DNA of 64,000 nt from Hypomyces perniciosus (taxonomy: Eukaryota; Ascomycota; Sordariomycetes; Hypocreales; Hypocreaceae): assembly GCA_008477525.1 (NCBI GenBank), contig SPDT01000005.1, positions 2,604,001-2,668,000 of the forward strand. The letters are read 5' to 3'. Under the pieces are notes generated by a model, which worked only from the letters and a program-made list of their open reading frames with translations, had not been told where the DNA came from and made no database searches. The position numbers and the translations under genes were made by a program. How positions within the stretch are numbered: the first letter of the stretch is position 1; every line of letters starts with the position of its first letter. Shown one piece after another: positions 1-45,727 of this stretch.

Positions 1-1
1 C

Positions 2-556
2 CGCTTCGAACAGAAGCTCTCTGAGGCAGGCGGCGACGACTGGGCTGACCAAGCCAAGATCATCTTCCTCGAGGGAGCGTTATCTCCAGAACTACGATTC
101 CGCTTAGCAACGGTGGACCTGCCGCTTACCTATAGCGAATGGCTTGCTAAGGTCCAGGATATCGCTAGCCGCGTCGAACGATTAGATCCAGACCGACGGA
201 ACGCGGGAGCCGCCTCGATAGGCCACTCCCGGCAGAAAAAACATAATAAGCCCCAACCACATCGCACTTCGAAGGACTATACACGAGCAGTCGACGAGGA
301 GGGCGATACCCGGATGGGGGGCGTGAACCGCATGAAGAACCAGCGCCGACGCAGCTCCTTACCGAGCGAGGCAGACACTGCCCGGGAGGCCACATGTTAC
401 CGTTGCGGGAAGGAGGGACATATTGCCCGGTTTTGCAAGAAAGGCCACAGAGCCCGGGCGCATCAGGTCCAGATCGCCGACCGCGAGTCTGATGATAACA
501 ACCAGCATACCAACGGCGAGGAAAACAGTAACTCTAGCGACGAGTCAAAAGATTAG
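2..556 (+). CDS. Gag polyprotein, C-terminal part (5' truncated by window edge)
   Basis: The frame is open from base 2 and ends at the TAG at 554-556. The first possible start inside the window (GTG at 113) is not a real start, because the frame continues upstream with gag-like residues. Near the C-terminus is a CCHC zinc knuckle, C-Y-R-C-G-K-E-G-H-I-A-R-F-C, which binds RNA during particle assembly. It is followed by a basic stretch and an acidic, Asn/Ser-rich tail. Pol overlaps the last codons in the -1 frame. No intron is evident. Confidence 0.88.
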   Translation, partial: RFEQKLSEAGGDDWADQAKIIFLEGALSPELRFRLATVDLPLTYSEWLAKVQDIASRVERLDPDRRNAGAASIGHSRQKKHNKPQPHRTSKDYTRAVDEEGDTRMGGVNRMKNQRRRSSLPSEADTAREATCYRCGKEGHIARFCKKGHRARAHQVQIADRESDDNNQHTNGEENSNSSDESKD

Positions 557-3500
557 CTCCAACGCAAAGTCGGGCGTTGGAGCCCACAAAGGAAGAACTG
601 AAGGGATGGAAGGAGTTCAAGGAGCGAATGACCGGCGAATCAGCAACGTTACAAGCCAGAATAGAGAATATACCTATTACAGCACTATTCGATACTGGCT
701 GTGACCTTTATGCTGTTATAAACTCCTCCCTTGCCCGGAAGTTACACCTCCCGCAGATCAAGATCACTAAAAGGAACAGCGAAAAGGAAGCGTACTTCCT
801 CCGAGCAATCAGCTTATCCGACATTGAAAAAGCACTCCAGCCTGAGAAACCTATAGATCCCCGGGAATATATCCCCCCCGAACTATACAAAGAGTTCTGT
901 TCGCTATTCTCTATAAAAGAAGCTACTAAGCTTCCACCACGCCGCCCCGGAGTCGATTTGCAGATTCCCCTGAAAGCCGATGAACACGGCAAAGAACCGG
1001 AACTCCCTTGGGGCCCCCTTTACAGCATGTCACGCGAGGAACTATTAGTGTTACGGAAGACCCTCCTCGACTTACTCGATAAGGGATTCATTCGAGCTAG
1101 CAGCTCAGCCGCCGCAGCCCCTGTCCTCTTTGTTCGGAAACCTGGAGGAGGAATTCGCTTCTGCGTAGACTACCGCGCCTTAAACGCAATAACGCAGCGA
1201 GATCGCTACCCCCTCCCCCTTTTTTCTGAAACCCTTAACAGCTTAACGAAAGCGAAGTGGTTCACGAAGCTAGATATAGTAGCTGCGTTCCATAAAATCA
1301 GGGTCGCGAAAGGAGAAGAACACAAGACTGCATTCCGTACACGCTATGGCCTATATGAGTGGCGGGTAGTTCCATTCGGACTTACCGGCGCACCAGCAGC
1401 GTTCCAACGGTATATCAACCAGGTACTACGCCCCTTTTTGGACGACTTCGCGTCCGCATACCTCGACGATATCCTGATCTATACCGACGGGTCACGAAAG
1501 GACCATATGAAGAAGGTCCGGCGAGTTTTACGCGCCCTCGCTGATGCTGGGCTACACCTAGATCCTAGGAAGTGCGCGTTCGCACAGAAAGAGATTAAAT
1601 ACCTTGGGTTTATTATACATGCCGGCAAGGGAATTGCCTGCGACCCCGAAAAGCAGCGAGCTATTAGCGAGTGGCAGGCACCTACGACAGTAACAGGAGT
1701 CCGAAGCTTCCTTGGCTTTGCCAATTACTACCGGATATTCATCCCCGGGTTCTCTCGGATAGCCCACCCGCTTGTGAGGCTGACCAAGAAAGGGACCCCC
1801 TTCCAGTGGAAAGGTATGGAAGAAGCAGCCTTCCAGGAGCTTAAACGCCTCTTCATCGAAGCCCCTATACTACAAGCTTGGGATCCTACAAAACGCACCT
1901 TTGTCGAAGCAGACTGTTCAGGATACGCTCTAGGAGGAGTCCTCCTGCAAGAGAACAAGAAGGGAGAACGTCACGCTATAGCTTACCACTCACAGAAGCT
2001 AAGCCCCGCCGAATACAACTATCCCATCCACGACAAGGAAATGCTGGCAGTAATTCGCTGTCTAGAAGAGTGGAGAGCAGAGCTACGTAGCTGCGACCCC
2101 TTTACAGTCATTTCAGACCATAAGAACTTGCAGTTCTTCATGACGCGCAGGAAACTCTCTGAACGACAGACGCGCTGGGCAGAGTTCCTTTCCCAGTTCG
2201 ATTTTACAATCCAATATAGGCCAGGCAGCGAGGCAGCCGCTCCCGACGCGTTAAGCCGCAGGGAACAAGACCTTCCACTCAATGAAGGCGACGAGCGCGA
2301 ACTAAGCCGCTATATACAACTTATCCCAGCCGCACCAGCGATACGGAGATTCGAGGACAGCGATACTGATCTCCCCTTAATGCGCGTATTCGACGGAAAC
2401 GAGGAACTACAGGACCTGTGGAACCTGACGATTCAGAAGGACCCGGTATATCGACGGGTATACGCTGCAGTTAGGAAGGAAGAGCGCTCCCTCCCCGCAG
2501 ACCTCCAACTTAAGGTACAGATATCGGAATGTACAATCGACGAGGAACAGAGATTAACGTTCCGAGACCGTATCTGGGTACCGGCTACAACCGAAGAAGA
2601 AGGCGAAACGCTGCGCACTCGCATTGTGCAAGCAGAACACGACGCCGCAGTCTCGGGCCACCCAGGTCGTGACGGAACCCTAGCTATTATTTCCCGCAGG
2701 TTTTTTTGGCCAGGAATTAGCAGTACAGTCCGACAATTCCTCCGCAACTGCAGTATATGCGGAAGAGGAAAGGTATGGAGAAGCTATAAGCGAGGACTCC
2801 TCAAACCACTACCTATTCCCCAGCGCATCCGCAGCGACCTAGCTATGGACTTCATAGTCGACCTACCACCCACAGGACCAACACAGGCACGATACCTTTG
2901 GGTTATTATCGACCGGCTTACTAAGAATATTACCCTCGAGGTAATGGAGAGTATGGAGGCAGAAGCATGTGCAAAGAGGTTCCTCCAATGCCACTATCGG
3001 TTCCACGGGATGCCCCGGTCTATAGTCAGCGACCGAGGATCTAATTGGACCAGCCGCTTCTGGAGAGCTTTCTGTAAACTAGCAGGAACCCAGCAACGCC
3101 TAAGCACGGCGTATCACCCACAGACTGACGGCGGACCAGAGAGGAGCAACCAAGAGATCCAAGCATACCTTAGAGCATATATAGACTACTCCCAGAGCGA
3201 TTGGGGAGACCTCCTCCCGGCAGCGCAACTAGCTTTAAATAACCGCGAACACACGGCTATCCAAATGAGCCCCTTTTTCCTTGAGCACGGCTACCATGTG
3301 GAACCCCTCCAGCTATATACGAAAGAAAACGAAGCTATTGGATTAAAGGACCCGGAGGAGAAGGCCGCAAAAGAAATAGTTGAGAGACTAGAAGGAGTAA
3401 CCGCCTTTGCCCAAGCAGCACTTGCCGCTACGCAACAACGCTACGAGGACTCCGCGAACCAGCGGCGAGGCCCCTCTGAGAGATATGAGGTGGGAGATAA

Positions 3501-3981
3501 AGTCTGGCTACACCTCGGCAACTACAATACTCCCCGGCCTTCCAAGAAGCTTGATGCCCTACATCATAAGTATACAGTAACAAAGGTCATTAGCCCTCAT
3601 GTAGTGGAACTGGGCGTACCAACTGGTATATACCCGCGATTTCACGTTGACCTGCTAAGAAGAGCGGCCGATGACCCCCTTCCGGGCCAGATTTCAGACG
3701 ACCCCCAACCACCACCGATACGAGTGGATGGCGAGGATGAATGGGAAGTTGAAGAGGTCCTCTGCGCGAGGACTAAGCGGCGAGGTCGCGGCTCTTTCCG
3801 CGAAGCATTAATACAGTGGAAAGGATATATAGAGCCAACCTGGGAACCGATACACGTACTTGAAGACACAGCAGCCCTCGACGACTATATATCTAAATAT
3901 GGCCCAATCGAATCTAACGACGGGCCACTTAACAGCTATGCGCCAGCGAAGCAACGGCGCCCAAGGAGAGAGCCACCGTAA
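538..3981 (+). CDS. Pol polyprotein: protease remnant, RT, RNase H, integrase, chromodomain
   Basis: The frame is open from about 538 to the TAA at 3979-3981. Numbering residues from the TTG at 577, a retroviral-type aspartic protease motif DTG is at 39-41, the RT catalytic YLDD at 295-298 and the first RNase H aspartate near 446. The integrase HHCC zinc site starts near 688, its first catalytic Asp is near 758, and SDRGSNW and the later Glu (PERSNQEIQ) follow. A C-terminal chromodomain (about 1055-1107, WKGYIEPTWEP) probably guides insertion to heterochromatin. About 20 residues after DTG the sequence jumps to the linker that normally precedes RT, so the second half of the protease appears deleted in frame. 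Translation probably needs a -1 frameshift from gag. There is no ATG near the frame's start. Confidence 0.95.
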   Translation, partial: RRVKRLAPTQSRALEPTKEELKGWKEFKERMTGESATLQARIENIPITALFDTGCDLYAVINSSLARKLHLPQIKITKRNSEKEAYFLRAISLSDIEKALQPEKPIDPREYIPPELYKEFCSLFSIKEATKLPPRRPGVDLQIPLKADEHGKEPELPWGPLYSMSREELLVLRKTLLDLLDKGFIRASSSAAAAPVLFVRKPGGGIRFCVDYRALNAITQRDRYPLPLFSETLNSLTKAKWFTKLDIVAAFHKIRVAKGEEHKTAFRTRYGLYEWRVVPFGLTGAPAAFQRYINQVLRPFLDDFASAYLDDILIYTDGSRKDHMKKVRRVLRALADAGLHLDPRKCAFAQKEIKYLGFIIHAGKGIACDPEKQRAISEWQAPTTVTGVRSFLGFANYYRIFIPGFSRIAHPLVRLTKKGTPFQWKGMEEAAFQELKRLFIEAPILQAWDPTKRTFVEADCSGYALGGVLLQENKKGERHAIAYHSQKLSPAEYNYPIHDKEMLAVIRCLEEWRAELRSCDPFTVISDHKNLQFFMTRRKLSERQTRWAEFLSQFDFTIQYRPGSEAAAPDALSRREQDLPLNEGDERELSRYIQLIPAAPAIRRFEDSDTDLPLMRVFDGNEELQDLWNLTIQKDPVYRRVYAAVRKEERSLPADLQLKVQISECTIDEEQRLTFRDRIWVPATTEEEGETLRTRIVQAEHDAAVSGHPGRDGTLAIISRRFFWPGISSTVRQFLRNCSICGRGKVWRSYKRGLLKPLPIPQRIRSDLAMDFIVDLPPTGPTQARYLWVIIDRLTKNITLEVMESMEAEACAKRFLQCHYRFHGMPRSIVSDRGSNWTSRFWRAFCKLAGTQQRLSTAYHPQTDGGPERSNQEIQAYLRAYIDYSQSDWGDLLPAAQLALNNREHTAIQMSPFFLEHGYHVEPLQLYTKENEAIGLKDPEEKAAKEIVERLEGVTAFAQAALAATQQRYEDSANQRRGPSERYEVGDKVWLHLGNYNTPRPSKKLDALHHKYTVTKVISPHVVELGVPTGIYPRFHVDLLRRAADDPLPGQISDDPQPPPIRVDGEDEWEVEEVLCARTKRRGRGSFREALIQWKGYIEPTWEPIHVLEDTAALDDYISKYGPIESNDGPLNSYAPAKQRRPRREPP
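544..556 (+). other. Probable -1 ribosomal frameshift region at the gag-pol overlap
   Basis: Gag ends TCA-AAA-GAT-TAG, and the pol frame (one base back) is open across the same bases from 538. The A4 run lets the A-site tRNA re-pair fully after a -1 slip, although the P-site pairing is imperfect. Gag and pol of many fungal gypsy elements are joined by -1 frameshifting. The exact slip site here is inferred. Confidence 0.45.
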
Positions 3982-3994
3982 GAAGGGGGGGTAA
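3981..3994 (+). other. Polypurine tract of the gypsy element
   Basis: A purine-rich run (AGAAGGGGGGGTAA) directly precedes the 3' LTR. This is the expected position of the plus-strand primer for reverse transcription. Confidence 0.8.
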
Positions 3995-4220
3995 TGTCAC
4001 AGGCTAGGCCATGTCTCCCGGAATCACGACTACGCCGAATCCGGAAATACGACCAATACTAGACCGCTTACCTAATTAGGAAACCACCTCGGCCACAACC
4101 CTATACGCACAACTATATAACGCATACATAGCTAGTATAGAGCTTCCTTCCTTCAGCTATAGATAGACAATACAGAGGTGCCCTAACTGCGTGCTTTCCA
4201 GTTAGGCTACACCCGTTACA
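3995..4220 (+). repeat. 3' LTR of the gypsy element (226 bp, TGT...ACA)
   Basis: The LTR starts TGTCACAGGC right after the polypurine tract and ends CCCGTTACA. It contains ACTATATAACGC as a TATA-like core. A copy of exactly the same length and nearly the same sequence is the solo LTR at 56277-56502. The five bases after it, GTTAT, should be one side of the target duplication; the other side is outside the window. Confidence 0.93.
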
Positions 4221-6746
4221 GTTATTAATATAATATAATTCTTTATTTAATTAAGTTAAGCTCTGCTTTATTTAAAGTATCTTTAACTATTAATTACTGG
4301 TAATATATACTCCCTATATTAACTTTAACGAAATTTTATTTTATTTTAACTGCTATTAAAACCTATATAAGGCTAGCTATACTTCTTAAAAGACAGTAGT
4401 TATAATAGTAATAGGATTTAAAGGTAATAGTTAACTCCTTTTAGTTAATATTAAAGTTATATTTTTTTAGCTATAAAAGGCTAAAGATTATAGGTATATT
4501 ATTAGGGATATTTATAATAAAAAAGAAGCAGAGTTTTTTATAAAAGCTGATTATAGTTTATATAATAAAAAAGTTTAAAATTTTATTAGCTATACTCCTA
4601 TTAGCAAATAAAAGATTCTTAGTAAATAATAGTTATTAAATAATAATATTAAATTACTTAATAAAAGCACAGTTAATAAAAGCTTAAAGTATATAGCCGC
4701 TATCTATTAAAGCTTTTATATTAATATAGATATTATATATAAAAAATAGTATAGTTTATAATAAAAGGGATTTACTATCTATTAATTTAAGTCTAAAGGG
4801 TTTTTAATTAAAAAGATAACAGTAAATCTATTTTAAGATAATAGTCCTGTTTACAGTTAACCTCTATTTATAACTTTTAGTAAAGGTTAATCTTTTCTTT
4901 AATTTGCAAGTTAAGTCTAGGTTCTTAACAGGTAAGTCTAGCTAAACTAAAATAAACTAAAAGTTAATAGGGCAGCGCTACTATTATTATCTTTATCTAT
5001 ACTTAAAGAGGGTATATTATTTAAGGCCTAAATTTATAGGTTACTTAGGCATTATAGGTAATATTAATGTATTATTAAAGTTTAATTATTATACTTTACT
5101 AAACTATTCTATTATTAGCCTTAAAATGCTATTAAGTTAAAGTATAGCTAATATAGCTAAACTTAACGGTTTTAATTTTATATCTAGTATAGATTGCCTT
5201 AATATATATTAAACTGCTTTTTTTTATTATATTTATTAAGGCTATAGCCTGCTTTTTTATAGTAAAAGTAAAGTCCTTTAATAATATATTCCTTATAAAA
5301 GACTTAAAGGCAAGGTAACAGGGTATATATAATATCTAGTTATATTAAGTTACTAGCTAGCGCTAAGGCAGCAGTTTAGTTATTCTGCTAGCATTAATAA
5401 TATTACTATTAATATTAATACTACTGCTATTAATAGCTTTATTAATACTAGCCTATTTAAGCAGCGTAAAGGGTATTATAGTAGGCGCCCTTTTAAAGCC
5501 TATTATAGATAGTTTAATAAAGTTAGCACTATTTAATAAAGTTAAACTTATTTAGTTTAATTACTTAAATCTTTATAGTATTAGTAAACTCTTAAAAGAC
5601 CTTTATCTTTAAAGCCTTTACTATCTGCTTAGCAGTTTTATTATATTTATTACTTAATGTAAATAACTTTACTATAAAGTTTTAAAAAGGCTTATTTAAT
5701 ATATATAAATTATTAAAAGACTATAATACCTTTTAAAAAAGGTTAATTATTTTATATTACTTATTAAAATTAATAAAAAGTATTATATTAATCTTTTAAT
5801 ACTATTAGGCAAGGTTATTAAGACTTTTAATAATAATATTAAAGTTTTTTTATTATAATTAATATATATCTCCCTTTAAAAAACTTATAATATATAAGAT
5901 TTTTATAAGTTTAATTGAAAAGATTAATTAATTGCCTATAAAAGTAATATTAATTTAAGAATACTAGTTAATATATTCTTGCTAATATTTAATAATATCC
6001 TTTTATTTACTATTAAATTACTTAAAGTCTTTAGTTTAATAGCTGCTAGGTAAATTATTATTTTTAGGGCTTAGTAGTAAAGCTATATTTAAAGCTTTAA
6101 CTTAAACTTTAATTTATACTTTAAAGTTTTAATTTTTAACTGCCTACTTTAAGATTTCCTATTTAAAGGTTTATTTTTATTTTTTTTATTAAGCTAGGCC
6201 CTTTTTAATTACTTAGTTAAAAAGATAGAATTAATAATAAAAGTTATTATCTTTAATAATTGCATTTATTAAATATATATAGTTACTATTAATGCTAGAT
6301 TTTTATAGGGTTTTAAAGAGAAAAGGGAAAAGTATAAACTTTATAGCTAAAACTGTAGTCTATTAGGCTAAATTAAGCTGCAGGGTAAGGTTTAGGGTAT
6401 TTATATTTATTTTACTTATAATTAGTTTCCTATAAATATAGGGTTTAAAGGATAACGGCTAGGCTGTAAAGGCGTTATTATAGGTTTAGGAATAAAAGGG
6501 GATTTAAGGGGAATTTATAATCGGTTAAGTATATGCCTCGCGATGGCGCAGCCGAGTTAAGGGATAGCATAAACTATTACAGTATGGAAAGGCAGGTCAG
6601 GGCAAATATCGTTATTGTGCCATAGAGAGCGAGAAAGTCCTAAGGCTTTACAGAAAACTATAGCTAGGAATGCGTTAAGGCCTAGTCACGTAACCAGGGC
6701 TCACATAACAGGGCGTCAATATCGCGTTACGGTTAGTGCTGTGACA
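4221..6746 (-). mobile_element. RIP-degraded Ty3/Gypsy relic on the minus strand
   Basis: This tract is very AT-rich with stops in all frames. On the minus strand near 4735-4655 a translation through stops gives KALIDSG followed by A-F-I-N, which matches the gypsy aspartic protease core (compare TALFDTG...AVIN in the intact element). The minus-strand left end at 6746 begins TGTCACAGC, an LTR-like terminus, and the copia sequence resumes at 6747. I infer that this gypsy inserted into the copia element and that the intact gypsy later inserted into it at 4220/4221. The gag zinc knuckle could not be found. Confidence 0.6.
6455..6746 (-). repeat. Probable 5' LTR of the minus-strand gypsy relic
   Basis: This GC-richer island reads, on the minus strand, from TGTCACAGC at 6746 to TTTACA near 6455. 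The TGT and ACA ends and the sharp junction with copia sequence support an LTR. The inner boundary is approximate because the mate LTR is not in the window. Confidence 0.4.
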
Positions 6747-8519
6747 GCGTTCTTTCTATATATTTATTGCTTTTGCAGTAAAATTTAACTTTAAGTTAAA
6801 GCAGTATAATATTAAGAACGCTTTTCTTAACGCTTTAAAGGACAAGAACTTGAAACCAGTTATATATAAGCTCCCTGAAGGTTTTAAGCAGCTAAATATT
6901 TATTTAAAGCTCGCGAAAGCCTTATATAGCTTAAAGGACTCGCTAAAGCTATAGTTTAATAAACTATCTTTAACTTTAAGGCAATAAAGGTTAACCTTAA
7001 GCTTTAAAAAGCCCTGTTTTTTTTATAATAAAGCTTAGAAAATCTTTATTATATTTTATATAAATAATATCTTAATTATATATTATTATAATAATAAAAC
7101 TCTTTATATTAAACTATTAAATACTTTAAAAGTAAAGTATAAGCTTTATAGTAAAGGAGATATACAGTAATTTTTAAAGATTAAAATTACCTGTAACTGT
7201 ATAAAGTATAAGATATACCTTTCCTATAAAACCTATTTTAAGAAAATTGCAAAATAATTTAGGCTTAATAAAGGAATATAGCTTCCTATAATTTTAATAC
7301 CTATTATAGAGCTCCGGAAAAGTATATTATAAGCTTTAAAAGCAACTATTAAGATATATTAACAGAAAGTAAGATTAATACTTTATATAGCTATTATAAT
7401 AAAGCCTAATATAGCTTATAGCGCCTTAGCTTTATTATAGTTTTTAATTAACCTTAGCAAAGAGTACCTTAAAACAGTTAACTAGCTAATCCGCTATTTA
7501 TTTATATAGTATTTCTTAACTTTTTAATATAAAGGGAAAGGAGAAATATAAATCTTAACTGCTTTAAGTAATACTTCCTTTACTAATAATATAAATACTT
7601 GGAAATTATCTTAAAGGTATTTTATTATACTTTTCTTAAGCCTTATTTTATAGAATATAATGCATTAAAGTACTATTAATATATCTATAATAAAAGCTAA
7701 ACTACTTGCCTTTACTTAAATAGTAAAAAAGGCTATAGTTTATATTACCTTTTTTAAAAGATAAAATTTAACTTTAGCGCTAATTAAAATATTAATTATA
7801 ACAATTAACTAACTATATATTTTATAATTAAAGAGAGTATATAAATTAATACTTGCCTGTATTATATTAATATATAAAATATATAACTTTAATAGGAATA
7901 CTAAAAAAGATTATTTACAGTTTCTTATCTTTCTATTAACTTTATACCTACTAACAGGCTTACTAAAGCCTTACTATAGCAGCGCTTTAAGCACTTTAAA
8001 GCACTATTAAACTTAGCAGATATATAGTTATTAGATTAGAATATACAAGAATACAGGAAACCAGTCAATTCTGGCCTGTAGGCCATATACCATAAAAAGG
8101 GGCATATTCTATCACCGCAATAACTATTCTCCGAGAGTTTTCCAGCCCTCGCGCGCCTACGCGCAAAAGGCATTATTATCGTTATCACTGCTGCCCAAGG
8201 CAGCAGCCTCTTTAAGGTAAACTAAGTTCTCCTCCTTTAATAGGTTAAATTAAAAGCGCAACGCCTTCTTACACCAGGTTACCATCTAATTATATAAGCT
8301 TATAAGCGTATAAAAAAAGGAGAGTATACTTACCCGGTTATCCTCCTCACTTACAGCTTCAAAGAGCCAGTATGCAATTCGTGTAAGCACTAAATGACTA
8401 TAGAGTATACAATTAGATAAAGCAATATAGGTAAATTAAAGAGGAGCTTATTAGGGGGCATATCGGTAATTACTACCGAAGCAAGCAGCGCACTGCCGAG
8501 AGCAGGCGACGGAAATACA

Positions 8520-8988
8520 CTAAGAGAAGTCTCCTTTGCCGGCAATTGCCGACTTCAGATAACCCTTACAAAGAGGGGATAACGGCATGGCAGCGGGAGC
8601 AGTGGCGGTAGTAAAGGCAGAGGCAGGAGCAGCCACCGGAGCAGCAGCAGCAGCAATGGGGGCAGGGGCCGGAGAAGAAGCAGCAGCTGCCTCAACAGCA
8701 AGGCGCGCTTCACGAGCAGCTGCAATGGCAGCAGCACAGCGCGCATCAAGAGCGGCAAAAGCCGCAGCATCCCTCGACCAGGCTGGACCAGCCAGCGCAG
8801 GAAGAGGAGAAGGGGGCGTGGCCGCTCGGCCAGCCGAGCGACCAACGCCGCGACAAGCCACCTTCGGGGGGCGACCACGACCACGCTTTACCGACAAGGT
8901 ATTCTTCTTCTGCGATTTCGCTGTTAGCTAACAAACACGCAGCGCGAAGGGGATCAGTCAGAAGCGTGATACTTACGGCAAGAGCCAT
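8520..8988 (-). CDS. Antisense spliced gene inside copia: AT-hook, Ala/Pro-rich protein of unknown function
   Basis: Exon 1 (8988-8977) is ATG GCT CTT GCC. A 67 bp intron (8976-8910) has donor GTAAGT, branch GCTAAC (8928-8923) and acceptor GCAG. Exon 2 (8909-8520) starts KKNTL and ends at a TAG. The predicted protein is 133 residues. Its N-terminus carries an AT-hook core (K-R-G-R-G-R-P-P-K, about residues 12-20), which in other proteins binds the minor groove of AT-rich DNA. The rest is low-complexity Ala/Pro with a conserved end, KGYLKSAIAGKGDFS. The gene runs opposite to pol, between pol and the 3' LTR. The second copia has the same frame, but its ATG and donor are mutated (ATA, ATAAGT). 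Function is unknown; nuclear DNA binding is an inference. I saw no homologue that I recognise. Confidence 0.7.
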
Positions 8989-9096
8989 GCTGCTGTTGAT
9001 GTTGATGTTGATGTTGTTGTTAATGTTGATAATAATGATGTTAATGACTGAAGAAGAAGAGCGAGGAATAGGGCCGGGGGGCAGCTAATATACCCA
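8989..9096 (-). promoter_or_regulatory. Leader and core promoter of the antisense copia gene
   Basis: Read on the minus strand this stretch has a TATA-like GTATATTA (9094-9087), then a pyrimidine tract CCTCGCTCTTCTTCTTCAG (9064-9046), then a leader of CAACATCAA-type repeats ending CAGCAGC just before the ATG. This is the usual layout of a filamentous-fungus promoter and 5' UTR. On the plus strand the same bases look like a meaningless GTT/GAT microsatellite. Confidence 0.5.
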
Positions 9097-9350
9097 TTCT
9101 AGCTGTTCAGGACCGATTCACCTACTTAGGGAGCTTTATTGTTCAACTTCCTATTATCACAGATCAACAATAGCTACGGCGCTCACATTCCTTTCACCTC
9201 TACAACAGAATATCTATGCGTGTTCACAACAAGGAGCTTCTGACTAAGCAAAAGAGGCTCTAGGAGCGCGGCCAGTCAGTCACAACACTATGGATAGACT
9301 AGGATAGCAGTCAATGAGGCACTGGGAATAGCCTCATTAACTGGGGGGTG

Positions 9351-9616
9351 TGTTGGGTTCAGTAGGCCGGGGCCCTACCGCTTGCCGGCGCTAGGGAGCT
9401 CTTATCTGCTATGTAAGCAGATACGAGCTGATACATATATCGCATAAGCGATATGTCAGACTATGCAGGCGCTTATGAAGCGCCTGTATACAGCTTCTTC
9501 TTTGTGTTGGCTATGTGTATATATAGCGAGGCCACTACGGCATATTCTCTCTCATAGAATCAAGCTTCGTTTCCCATCTCTCTATGCTCCACATAGCTGT
9601 GCCGCGCTCCGCCACA
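9351..9616 (+). repeat. 3' LTR of copia copy 1 (266 bp) with three hairpins
   Basis: It starts TGTTGGGTTC after a G-rich tract (GGGGGG) and ends CCGCCACA. A TATA box is at 9518-9525. Three consecutive inverted repeats lie upstream of it: 9403-9423 (8 bp arms), 9437-9454 (7 bp arms) and 9466-9486 (9 bp arms, loop ATG). The LTR of copy 2 (45448-45713) is also 266 bp and keeps all three. Flanking unique DNA begins TCTAG at 9617. Confidence 0.9.
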
Positions 9617-42800: not shown

Positions 42801-44616
42801 AAAAGCGCTTTACTATAAAGAGTATATATATAGCTATATTAATAGCGCATTCTTTCTATATATTTATTGCTTTTACAGTAAGATTTAACTTTAAGTTAAA
42901 GCAGTATAATATTAAAAACGCTTTTCTTAATGCTTTAAAGGATAAGAACTTAAAACCAGTTATATATAAGCTCCTTAAGGGTTTTAAGCAGCCGAATATC
43001 TGTTTAAAGCTCGCGAAAGCCTTATATAGCTTAAAAGATTCACTAAAGCTATAGTTTAATAAACTATTTTCAACCTTAAGGCAATAAAGGTTAATCTTAA
43101 ACTCTAAAAAGCCCTATCTCTTTTATAATAAAGCTTAGAAAATCTTTATTATATTCTATATAAATAATATTTTAATTATATATTATTATAATAATAAAGC
43201 TTTTTACACTAAACTATTAAATACTTTAAAAGTAAAGTATAAGCTTTATAATAAAAGAGATATATAGTAGTTTTTAAAGATTAAGATTACCTATAACTAT
43301 ATAGAATATAAAATATACTTTTCCTATAAAACCTATTTTAAGAAAATTATAAAATAATTTAGGCTTAATAAAAGAATATAGCTTTTTATAATTTTAATAC
43401 TTATTATAAAGCTTTAAAAGAGTATATTGCAAGCTTTAAAAGCAACTATTAAGATATATTAAAAGAAAGTAGGATTAATACTTTATATAGCTATTATAAT
43501 AAGGCCTAATATAGCTTATAGCGCCTTGGCTTTATTATAGTTTTTAATTAACCCTAATAAAGAGCACCTTAAAGCAGTTAACTAGCTAATCTGCTATTTA
43601 TATATATAGCATTTCCTAGCTCTTTAATATAAAAGGTAAAGAGAAATATAAGTTTTAACTGCTTTAAGTAATACTTCTTTTATTAATAATATAAATACTT
43701 GGAGATTATTTTAAGGATATTTTATTATACTTTTCTTAGGCCTTATTTTATAGAATATAATACGCTAAAGCACTATCAGTATATCTATAATAAAAGCTAA
43801 ACTGCTTGCCTTTACTTAAATAGCGAAAAAGGCTATAGGTTTATATTGCTTTTTTTAAAAGATAAAATTTAAGCCTGGCGCTAATTGGAATATTAATTAT
43901 AATAATAAATTAACTATATATCTTATAATTAAAGAGAGTATATAAATTAATACTTGCCTGCATTATATTAATATATAAAATATATAGCTTTAATAGAAAT
44001 ACTAGAAAAAATTATTTTTAGTTTTTTATCTTTTTATTAACCTTATACCTGCTAATAGGCTTACTAAAGCTTTATTATAGCAGCGCTTTAAGCACTTTAA
44101 AGTACTATTAAACTTAGTAGATATATAGTTACTGGAATAGAATATATAAAAATACAGGAAACCAGTTAATTCTAGCCTATAGGCCGCCAGCTATAAAAGC
44201 GCATTTTATTACTGCAATAACTATTCTCTAAAAGCTTTCCAGCCTTTATATACCTATACGCAAAGGGCATTGTTATTATTATCGCTACTGCCTAAGGCAG
44301 CAGCCTCTTTAAAGTAAACTGAGTTCTCCTCCTTTAATAGGTTAAATTAAAGGCGTAATGCTTTTTTGCACTAGGTTACTATTTAATTATATAAGCTTAT
44401 AAGCGTATAAAGAAAAGAGAGTATATTTACCCAGTTATCCTCTTTACTTACAGCTTAAAAAAGCCAGCATACAATTAATGCAAGCATTAAATAACTATAG
44501 AGTATATAATTAAATAAAGTAATATAGGCAAATTAAAAAAGAGCTTACTAGGGGGCATATTAGTAATTACTATTAAAGCAAGCAGTATACTATTAAAAGC
44601 AGGTAATAGAAATATA

Positions 44617-45097
44617 TTAAGAGAAGTCTTTTTTACCGGCAATTACTGATTTTAGATAACCTTTATAAAAAGGGGATAATAGTATAGCAGTAGGGGCAGT
44701 GGCGGTAATAGAGGCAGAAGTAGAGGTAACTGCGGGAGCAGCTACTAGAGTAGCAGTAATAGGGGCAGGGGCTGGAGTAGAAGTAATAACTGCCTTAGCA
44801 GTAAGGCGTACTTTATAAGCAATAGCTAAGCGTGCGTCAAGAGCGGCAAAAGCCGCAACACGCCTTGCAGGAGCAGGAGCAGGAGCCGGAGTAAGAGCCG
44901 GTGCAGGAGCGGGAGCAGTAATAAGTATAGCCGCTTGGCCAGCCGAGCGACTAACGCCGCGACAAGCCACTTTTAGGGGGCAACTATAACCACGCTTTAC
45001 TGACAAGGTATTCTTCTTCTGCAATTTCGCTATTAGCTAATAAATATATAGCGCGAAAGGAATTAATTAGAAGCGTAATACTTATAGCGGGGGCTAT
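44617..45097 (-). pseudogene. Decayed second copy of the antisense AT-hook gene
   Basis: This is the same position and strand as the gene at 8520-8988. Exon 2 stays open for 135 codons (KKNTLSVKRG...VACRGVSRSAG...FYKGYLKSVIAGKKDFS), but the AT-hook has changed to RGYSCPLK. The start has become ATA (45097-45095) and the donor ATAAGT, both typical RIP changes. The open frame alone does not show selection, because Ala/Pro codons cannot become stops by C-to-T or G-to-A change. Confidence 0.6.
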
Positions 45098-45447
45098 ATT
45101 ACTGTTAATATTATTGTTAATATTAATGATAATAATATTAATAACTGAAAAAAAAAGCGAGGAATAAAGGCCAGGGGGGCAGCTAATATACCCATTCTAG
45201 CTGTTTAAAACTGATTCACCTGCTTAGGAGCTTTATTGTTTAACTTCCTATTATTATAAAATAACAATAGCTACGGCGCTTATATTCCTTTCACCTCTAT
45301 AACAGAATATCGATACGTATTCACAATAAGGAGCTTCTGACTAAGCAAAAGAGGCTCTAGGAGCGCGGCCAGTTAATCACAACACCATAAATAAGCTAGA
45401 GTAGCAGTCAATAAGGCATTAGGAATAGCCTTATTAACTGGGGGGTA

Positions 45448-45713
45448 TGTTAGGTTGAGTAGGCCGGGGCCCTACCGCTTATTAGCGCTAGGGAGCTCTT
45501 ATCTGCTATGTAAGCAGATATAAGCTGACATACACATCGCATAAGCGATGTGTCAGACTATGCAGGCGCTTTATAAGCGCCTGCACACAGCTTCTTCTTT
45601 GTGTTAGCTATGTGTATATATAGCGAGGCCACTACAGCATATTCTCTTTTATAGAATCAAGCTTCATTTCCCATCTCTCTATACTCTATATAGCTGTGCC
45701 GCGCTCCGCCACA
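45448..45713 (+). repeat. 3' LTR of copia copy 2 (266 bp)
   Basis: TGTTAGGTTG...CCGCCACA, same length as the LTR at 9351-9616. The three inverted repeats are kept. In the middle hairpin both arms differ from copy 1 in a paired way (ACATCGC/GCGATGT here, ATATCGC/GCGATAT there), and the third has arms of 10 bp (GCAGGCGCTT). Confidence 0.88.
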
Positions 45714-45727
45714 TAATCTATATTAAA

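Follow-up and report, generated by a model that had tools for sequence, protein, structure and literature searches.

A spliced antisense frame with an AT-hook motif in a copia retrotransposon family of Hypomyces perniciosus

The antisense frame and its copia host

The window is a 64,000-nucleotide stretch of contig SPDT01000005.1 of Hypomyces perniciosus and contains two copies of a copia element. The first copy, with pol on the plus strand, carries a spliced frame that lies between RNase H and the 3' LTR and runs opposite to pol (Table 1). By position and antisense orientation the frame is an aORF-3R, an antisense additional ORF between pol and the 3' LTR. The spliced antisense gene proposed in the first-pass annotation (8520-8988, minus strand) is present base for base, with every piece in its place. 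The TATA-like site, pyrimidine tract and CAA-rich leader also proposed were found upstream, as TATATTA, a CT-rich tract and a CAA/CAT leader. The decayed gene reported for the second copia copy was likewise located. No 5' LTR of either copia copy was found inside the window.

Table 1. Features of the antisense gene and of the copia elements that carry it, in window coordinates
Feature	Position	Strand	Remarks
RT-RNase H part of pol, RIP-mutated	6750..8040	+	Same element as the antisense gene
Rest of C-terminal frame	8451..8519	-	Codes for the tail's second part (six cysteines in all, DUF3716-like) in copies with less mutation
Exon 2 as read in the window copy	8520..8909	-	AT-hook KRGRGRPPK, Ala/Pro linker and first part of the cysteine-rich tail; ends at a RIP-type TAG (8522-8520)
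Intron, 67 bp	8910..8976	-	GTAAGT donor from 8976, GCTAAC branch-like site, CAG acceptor ending at 8910
Exon 1	8977..8988	-	ATGGCTCTTGCC (MALA), read at 8988-8977
CAA/CAT-rich leader	8989..9065	-	CT-rich tract at its upstream end; CTTCTTCTTCA exact in 26/41 copies
TATA-like site TATATTA	9086..9092	-	Present in 39/41 copies
Polypurine tract before the 3' LTR	9341..9350	+	Position shared by the other copies compared
3' LTR of the copia element	9351..9616	+	TGTTGGG...CCACA
Same gene region in copia copy 2 (42847-45714), decayed	44498..45198	-	ATA for ATG; AT for GT at the donor

The genome searched comprises 44.0 Mb in 23 contigs. Window positions 8400-9100 served as a DNA query; 40 of 150 candidates were scored and 44 matches obtained, which makes the copy number a minimum estimate. 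A total of 39 other loci were fetched and aligned with the two window copies, giving a family of at least 41 copies, all found through the antisense-gene region, a route by which copies without the gene would be missed. A protein search of the same genome listed more than 150 matches, many of which are pieces. Copies outside the window are designated by locus (L009, L013 and so on). The RVT_2 reverse transcriptase (PF07727, E 2.4e-21 on L019) identifies the element as copia.

Two LTRs are present in 17 of the 20 loci fetched at ten kb. They are 83-96% identical within a copy, a value lowered by RIP, and exact 5-bp target duplications occur in 13 of the 16 copies tested. Thus, the antisense gene is internal to the element and moves with it. 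The family measures about 7.1 kb: 12 of the 17 two-LTR copies are 7.05-7.17 kb long and five are 7.46-7.74 kb. The first-pass view of an intron-bearing antisense passenger of copia therefore holds for the location between pol and the 3' LTR, for movement with the element and for the intron, whose length is constant in 41/41 copies; it does not hold for the size and domain content of the product. The reasoning that an antisense intron would survive retrotransposition is sound.

The sense frames do not exceed 280 aa in any of the seven copies listed (L009, L013, L016, L017, L019, L020 and L026), so gag-pol is broken in each of them. In the window copy, no sense frame of 150 aa exists between 4229 and 9350. 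A stretch of about 250 bp with higher GC, at about 6500-6750, lies inside this RIP-mutated copy and may be a later insertion, for example a solo LTR.

Targeting to AT-rich DNA had been suggested as a role of the AT-hook. The 17 two-LTR copies are flanked by sequence with a median GC of 0.22, and 29 of their 34 flanks are under 0.35, a level seen in 22/108 bins of the window. However, all eight flanks of four gypsy elements, which were paired from LTR matches without inspection of their interiors, are under 0.35 GC too, and in the gypsy family's copy in the window the space from pol to the LTR is too small to hold a gene of this kind. The preference for AT-rich sequence is thus not special to the element with the AT-hook. 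The suggestion gains no specific support, and AT-rich integration was dropped as a mark of AT-hook targeting.

The gypsy copy is a Ty3/gypsy element at window positions 1-4228 with an open pol frame of 1134 aa and a chromodomain match below cut-off. For its LTR, at least 40 matches of 98-100% identity were obtained, indicating that the element amplified recently in a genome crowded with RIP-mutated repeats.

Gene anatomy and the predicted protein

The intron signals are preserved to different degrees over the 41 aligned copies, with GT in 25, AG in 37 and the branch-site consensus RCTRAC in 27. At the start codon, nine copies keep ATG; 31 have ATA, the RIP-type outcome of a CpA-to-TpA change in the opposite strand, and one has ATC. 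ATG, GT and AG are all kept in eight copies only. Six of these (L013, L016, L019, L035, L038 and the window copy) are open for at least 133 codons, while L020 and L032 stop at 31 and 55 codons, respectively. The GRP core of the AT-hook is found in 25/41 copies.

The length of exon 2 differs from that of L019 by a multiple of three in 37/41 copies (L019 counted), even though 25 distinct lengths occur; the exceptions are L009, L032, L039 and L044. Upstream of the ATG, the length difference is not a multiple of three in 27/40 copies.

The two least mutated copies fetched, L013 and L019, encode predicted proteins of 166 and 162 residues, ending in ...CAACFGGNHRCAPW. Both are composed of an N-terminal AT-hook, a variable Ala/Pro linker and a six-cysteine tail resembling DUF3716. 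The 133-residue product of the first-pass annotation is a RIP-truncated form of this protein. Its stop codon is a RIP-type change from CAG to TAG through which the less mutated copies read, and the second cysteine is also lost in the window copy (C to Y). The AT-hook core that had been recognized is indeed encoded in exon 2 of the window copy, but the second, DUF3716-like part of the protein, with its six cysteines in the less mutated copies, had been overlooked. L019 has an additional in-frame ATG 28 codons further upstream, and L013 has one likewise; in the window copy it is out of frame because of a change in the length of a G-run.

With the AT_hook profile (PF02178), KRGRGRPPK reaches 14.3 bits (E 0.038 in a search of the N-terminal 36 aa), short of the cut-off of 17.4. 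The linker, rich in Ala and Pro, varies so much that about six types could be sorted by eye. The tail's matches to DUF3716 (PF12511) all stay below the 22-bit cut-off; the best score, 17.2 bits (E 0.0049), came from searching the 46 aa of the tail by themselves. DUF3716 is nonetheless the sole Pfam match for L019 (E 0.088) and L013 (E 0.16) and the top one for L046 (E 0.059) and L035 (E 0.028), all below threshold; among the five spliced proteins searched, only L038 lacks it. The host genome has five DUF3716 regions above cut-off. By eye, the cysteines of the tail follow the order seen in L048, the best of the five, if an insertion of 4 residues is allowed for; MAFFT left the last cysteine unaligned. 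A profile built from four host sequences gives the tail 7.1 bits, a score equalled by 27 of 5000 shuffles of the tail.

Searches for homologues covered several collections. In the protein database, the whole protein had no match at E <= 0.001 among the 7996 scored candidates that share most words with it, and residues 112-162 had none at E <= 0.1 among 11 candidates. A control search with an RT piece of the same element returned 211 proteins at E <= 1e-10, with several named fungal ones among the 120 matches listed, so fungal sequences are present in this database. A spliced antisense gene inside repeats is probably seldom predicted. The viral contigs searched contain no homologue, and NCBIfam has none at E <= 1. 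The best match in the PDB, TARBP2, was rejected at E 0.073. In the literature searched, which took in few subscription papers, no paper on DUF3716 in fungi was found.

Other copia families of the genome were represented by six 3' stretches chosen from 107 RVT_2 matches. The 107, which include those at C5:2449678 and C23:3038940, mostly contain several internal stops. By eye, no comparable gene with a frame of at least 90 aa is present in L053 or L054, the least mutated of the other copia copies examined, whose LTRs were not located. L053 (C20:22000-26500) belongs to another copia family. Its long RT frame is open over 1586 aa, and behind it lie two antisense frames (484 and 276 aa) that by eye resemble a helicase and are perhaps Helitron-like. 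L054 (C9:178200-183089) is a copia copy with an 890-aa open frame, near which an antisense frame of 364 aa resembles a DDE transposase by eye.

RIP over the element

The most surprising part of the results is a measured one: RIP is reduced over most of the antisense gene. Eighteen copies from the other 10-kb loci were compared with L019; L013 was left out as little mutated. CpA/TpG sites are changed to TpA at a fraction of 0.76 in gag-pol and 0.82 in the RT-RNase H part. The fraction falls to 0.16 for the linker (a ratio of 0.28 to the rate expected from NCAN context in pol), 0.20 for the AT-hook part (ratio 0.24) and 0.18 for exon 1 plus leader (ratio 0.22), so that RIP-type mutation is about four times rarer there than expected. 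The short parts hold few such sites (six in the AT-hook part, nine in the intron and 13 in exon 1 plus leader). The trough extends over window positions of about 8560-9050, corresponding to 7691-8165 of L019 in sense orientation. Intermediate fractions are found in the intron (0.57), the promoter stretch (0.56), the 5' LTR (0.50) and the 3' LTR (0.37). Mutation is nearly as heavy as in pol both in the tail (0.78) and in the sequence that separates RNase H from the gene (0.87). The start codon is an exception to the deficit, its TpG being mutated in 31/39 copies.

The deficit is consistent between copies: the linker is less mutated than the promoter stretch in 17 of the 18 copies and less than the RT-RNase H part in all 18. 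Base composition and RIP rate are uncorrelated inside pol (-0.05 in 150-bp windows with GC of 0.38-0.57). The linker has a GC of 0.71, which no pol window reaches, and the leader is spared at a GC of 0.48. Restricting the count to C/T or G/A states, in 18 copies that share a linker type, leaves the deficit in place, with fractions of 0.22 in the linker, 0.21 in the AT-hook part, 0.22 in the leader, 0.38 in the intron and 0.66 in the tail.

Owing to the reduced RIP over linker, AT-hook and leader, some copies keep the gene open while pol is destroyed. In L016, a spliced frame of 150 codons survives although 157 of the 168 CpA/TpG sites in the RT-RNase H part are mutated. Length variation between the copies may break the recognition of homology and so spare the gene from RIP. 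This simple version is weakened because the tail, which adjoins the linker, is not spared, and the LTRs are partly spared. In a wider form of the idea, the gene would occupy a RIP refuge: the hypervariable linker and the leader repeats would break the homology that RIP needs, the gene would outlive gag-pol, and the mutated copies would serve as antisense-only sources of an AT-hook protein whose target is RIP-mutated, AT-rich chromatin and whose effect either favors or harms the element. We regard this proposal as improbable. A RIP-spared stretch inside a repeat would bear on how RIP recognizes homology, and a RIP-spared gene on how one gene of a transposon could stay functional once those for replication are dead.

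Interpretation and comparison with known systems

The spliced antisense frame is a real feature of the copia family, and it is probably a translated accessory gene. In favor of this count the fixed 67-bp intron, the retention of TATATTA, exon 2 lengths that nearly all differ by multiples of three where the sequence before the ATG does not follow this rule, the rarity of comparable spliced ORFs in shuffled sequence, and AT-hook and DUF3716-like matches at the two ends of the protein. Against it stand the sub-threshold scores of both domains, the small number of copies with intact start and splice sites, and the negative outcome of the protein and viral homologue searches. A less likely reading, to which we give perhaps a minor share of belief, is that the region is not a protein gene. 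A GC-rich triplet-repeat stretch would be open in several frames, and the splice-like and TATA-like sites would be present by chance or would serve an antisense non-coding RNA controlling the element. Several frames are open across the repeat, and slippage of triplet repeats favors in-frame lengths even without selection. When the antisense RNaseH-to-PPT interval of L019 was shuffled by dinucleotides (n=3000), spliced ORFs of at least 160 aa arose in none and of at least 100 aa in five of the shuffles; when it was shuffled in 150-nt blocks (n=3000), they arose in six and 21, respectively, the latter count being in keeping with a non-coding origin. When the whole L019 element was scanned in the same way, no spliced ORF was obtained from the sense strand, and the longest one on the antisense strand was this gene, at 190 aa if counted from the upstream ATG.

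Substitutions do not reveal purifying selection, for which the first-pass annotation had proposed a dN/dS test over low-RIP copies, and this too agrees with a non-coding stretch. In 14 chosen copies of the 41, the non-RIP dN/dS is 2.00 for the AT-hook part, against 0.32 and 0.36 in two other frames. For the C-terminus it is 0.51, a value that one sense frame equals. Transversions at codon positions 1, 2 and 3 number 3/4/2 in the AT-hook part and 12/10/11 in the C-terminal part, without an excess at the third position. Apart from RIP, the copies are too alike for a strong test of selection. The linker is least variable at codon position 2 (25 transversion events, compared with 59 and 56 at positions 1 and 3), as fits Ala/Pro/Ser/Thr codons and speaks for coding, but the mirror frame on the opposite strand predicts the same and composition alone may produce it. 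Against a non-coding origin, the start codon, the three splice signals (donor, branch site and acceptor), the AT-hook and the cysteine tail share a single register in the non-repeat flanks, and this register is kept by the roughly six linker types sorted by eye.

A Gln-rich sense frame overlaps the whole region and could in principle be the real gene. It is open in L013 (280 aa, 7517-8356) and L019 (275 aa, 7504-8328; sense-oriented coordinates) and shorter in L017 (216 aa). However, its start codon is not shared, with the first Met at offset 88 in L013 and 203 in L019. In the window copy, stops interrupt the frame, some of them perhaps products of RIP, and the change in G-run length shifts it. 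Reasoning from the transversion counts, the least variable position of the linker would be the third position of this frame. Its sole Pfam match is TFIIA at E 0.11, below cut-off. We judge a sense gene very improbable. Capture of a host gene, carried as a passenger without benefit to the element, would account for the intron, the promoter-like site of its own and the DUF3716-like tail, all of which resemble a host gene, and the host does have DUF3716 regions. Yet no gene combining an AT-hook with DUF3716 was seen by eye at the five host loci, and the gene resides in at least 41 copies rather than in one or a few, making capture without benefit improbable.

As a translated accessory gene, the frame would be transcribed opposite to gag-pol from a TATA promoter of its own, situated between the gene and the 3' LTR, and the antisense transcript would be spliced once. 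The protein translated from the CAA-rich leader would be small and probably nuclear. It would begin with the AT-hook, continue through an Ala/Pro linker that changes fast, and end in a DUF3716-like tail whose six cysteines probably bind zinc. We infer transcription, splicing and translation of the gene, and DNA binding by its product. By analogy with roles proposed for other antisense proteins of LTR elements, the protein might regulate the transcription or chromatin state of its element in trans, a suggestion that we put forward tentatively. Silencing, anti-silencing and antisense control, the roles named in the first-pass annotation, are conceivable for the gene. An antisense accessory gene that is compact, fungal and equipped with a recognizable DNA-binding motif would lend itself readily to testing.

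The HBZ gene of HTLV-1 is spliced and encodes a bZIP protein. It is expressed from an antisense promoter in the 3' LTR, and its product is nuclear (PMC7264820, PMC11963269). As an antisense gene near the 3' end that encodes a nuclear regulator, HBZ resembles the gene proposed here; it differs in its bZIP product, in the location of its promoter inside the 3' LTR and in belonging to an infectious retrovirus.

Parallels in position come from LTR retrotransposons, whose antisense accessory genes are described in PMC7264820 as having no settled function and their proteins as bearing no clear similarity to known ones. Gene23 of maize Grande is an antisense gene between pol and the 3' LTR, as in the copia family, with a promoter in its own upstream region and a nuclear protein (PMC7264820); Grande is a plant element, and it was compared by description only. 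Retand carries antisense TRP28 ORFs with predicted DNA binding and a proposed regulatory role (PMC11963269). They share with the present gene the orientation, the interval between pol and the 3' LTR, the predicted DNA binding and the presence of tandem repeats in that interval, but are plant sequences with a TRP28 domain, and the words "intron" and "AT-hook" are absent from the main text of PMC11963269. Boty of Botrytis cinerea, a gypsy element, has an additional antisense gene, brtn (Zhao et al. 2011, as cited in PMC7264820, PMC8365987 and PMC4227169). It too is a fungal LTR retrotransposon with an antisense ORF between pol and the 3' LTR, according to the list in PMC7264820; unlike the copia host here, Boty has a gypsy gag-pol with a chromodomain (PMC4227169), the two being compared by description only. 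Since antisense accessory genes at this site are known from Grande, Retand and Boty, the kind of gene is already known. A literature search that took in few subscription papers found no antisense gene of a fungal copia in which an intron is combined with both an AT-hook and a DUF3716-like tail. Relative to that literature, what appears to be new is the combination predicted from sequence: a copia host, splicing, and an AT-hook joined to a DUF3716-like tail.
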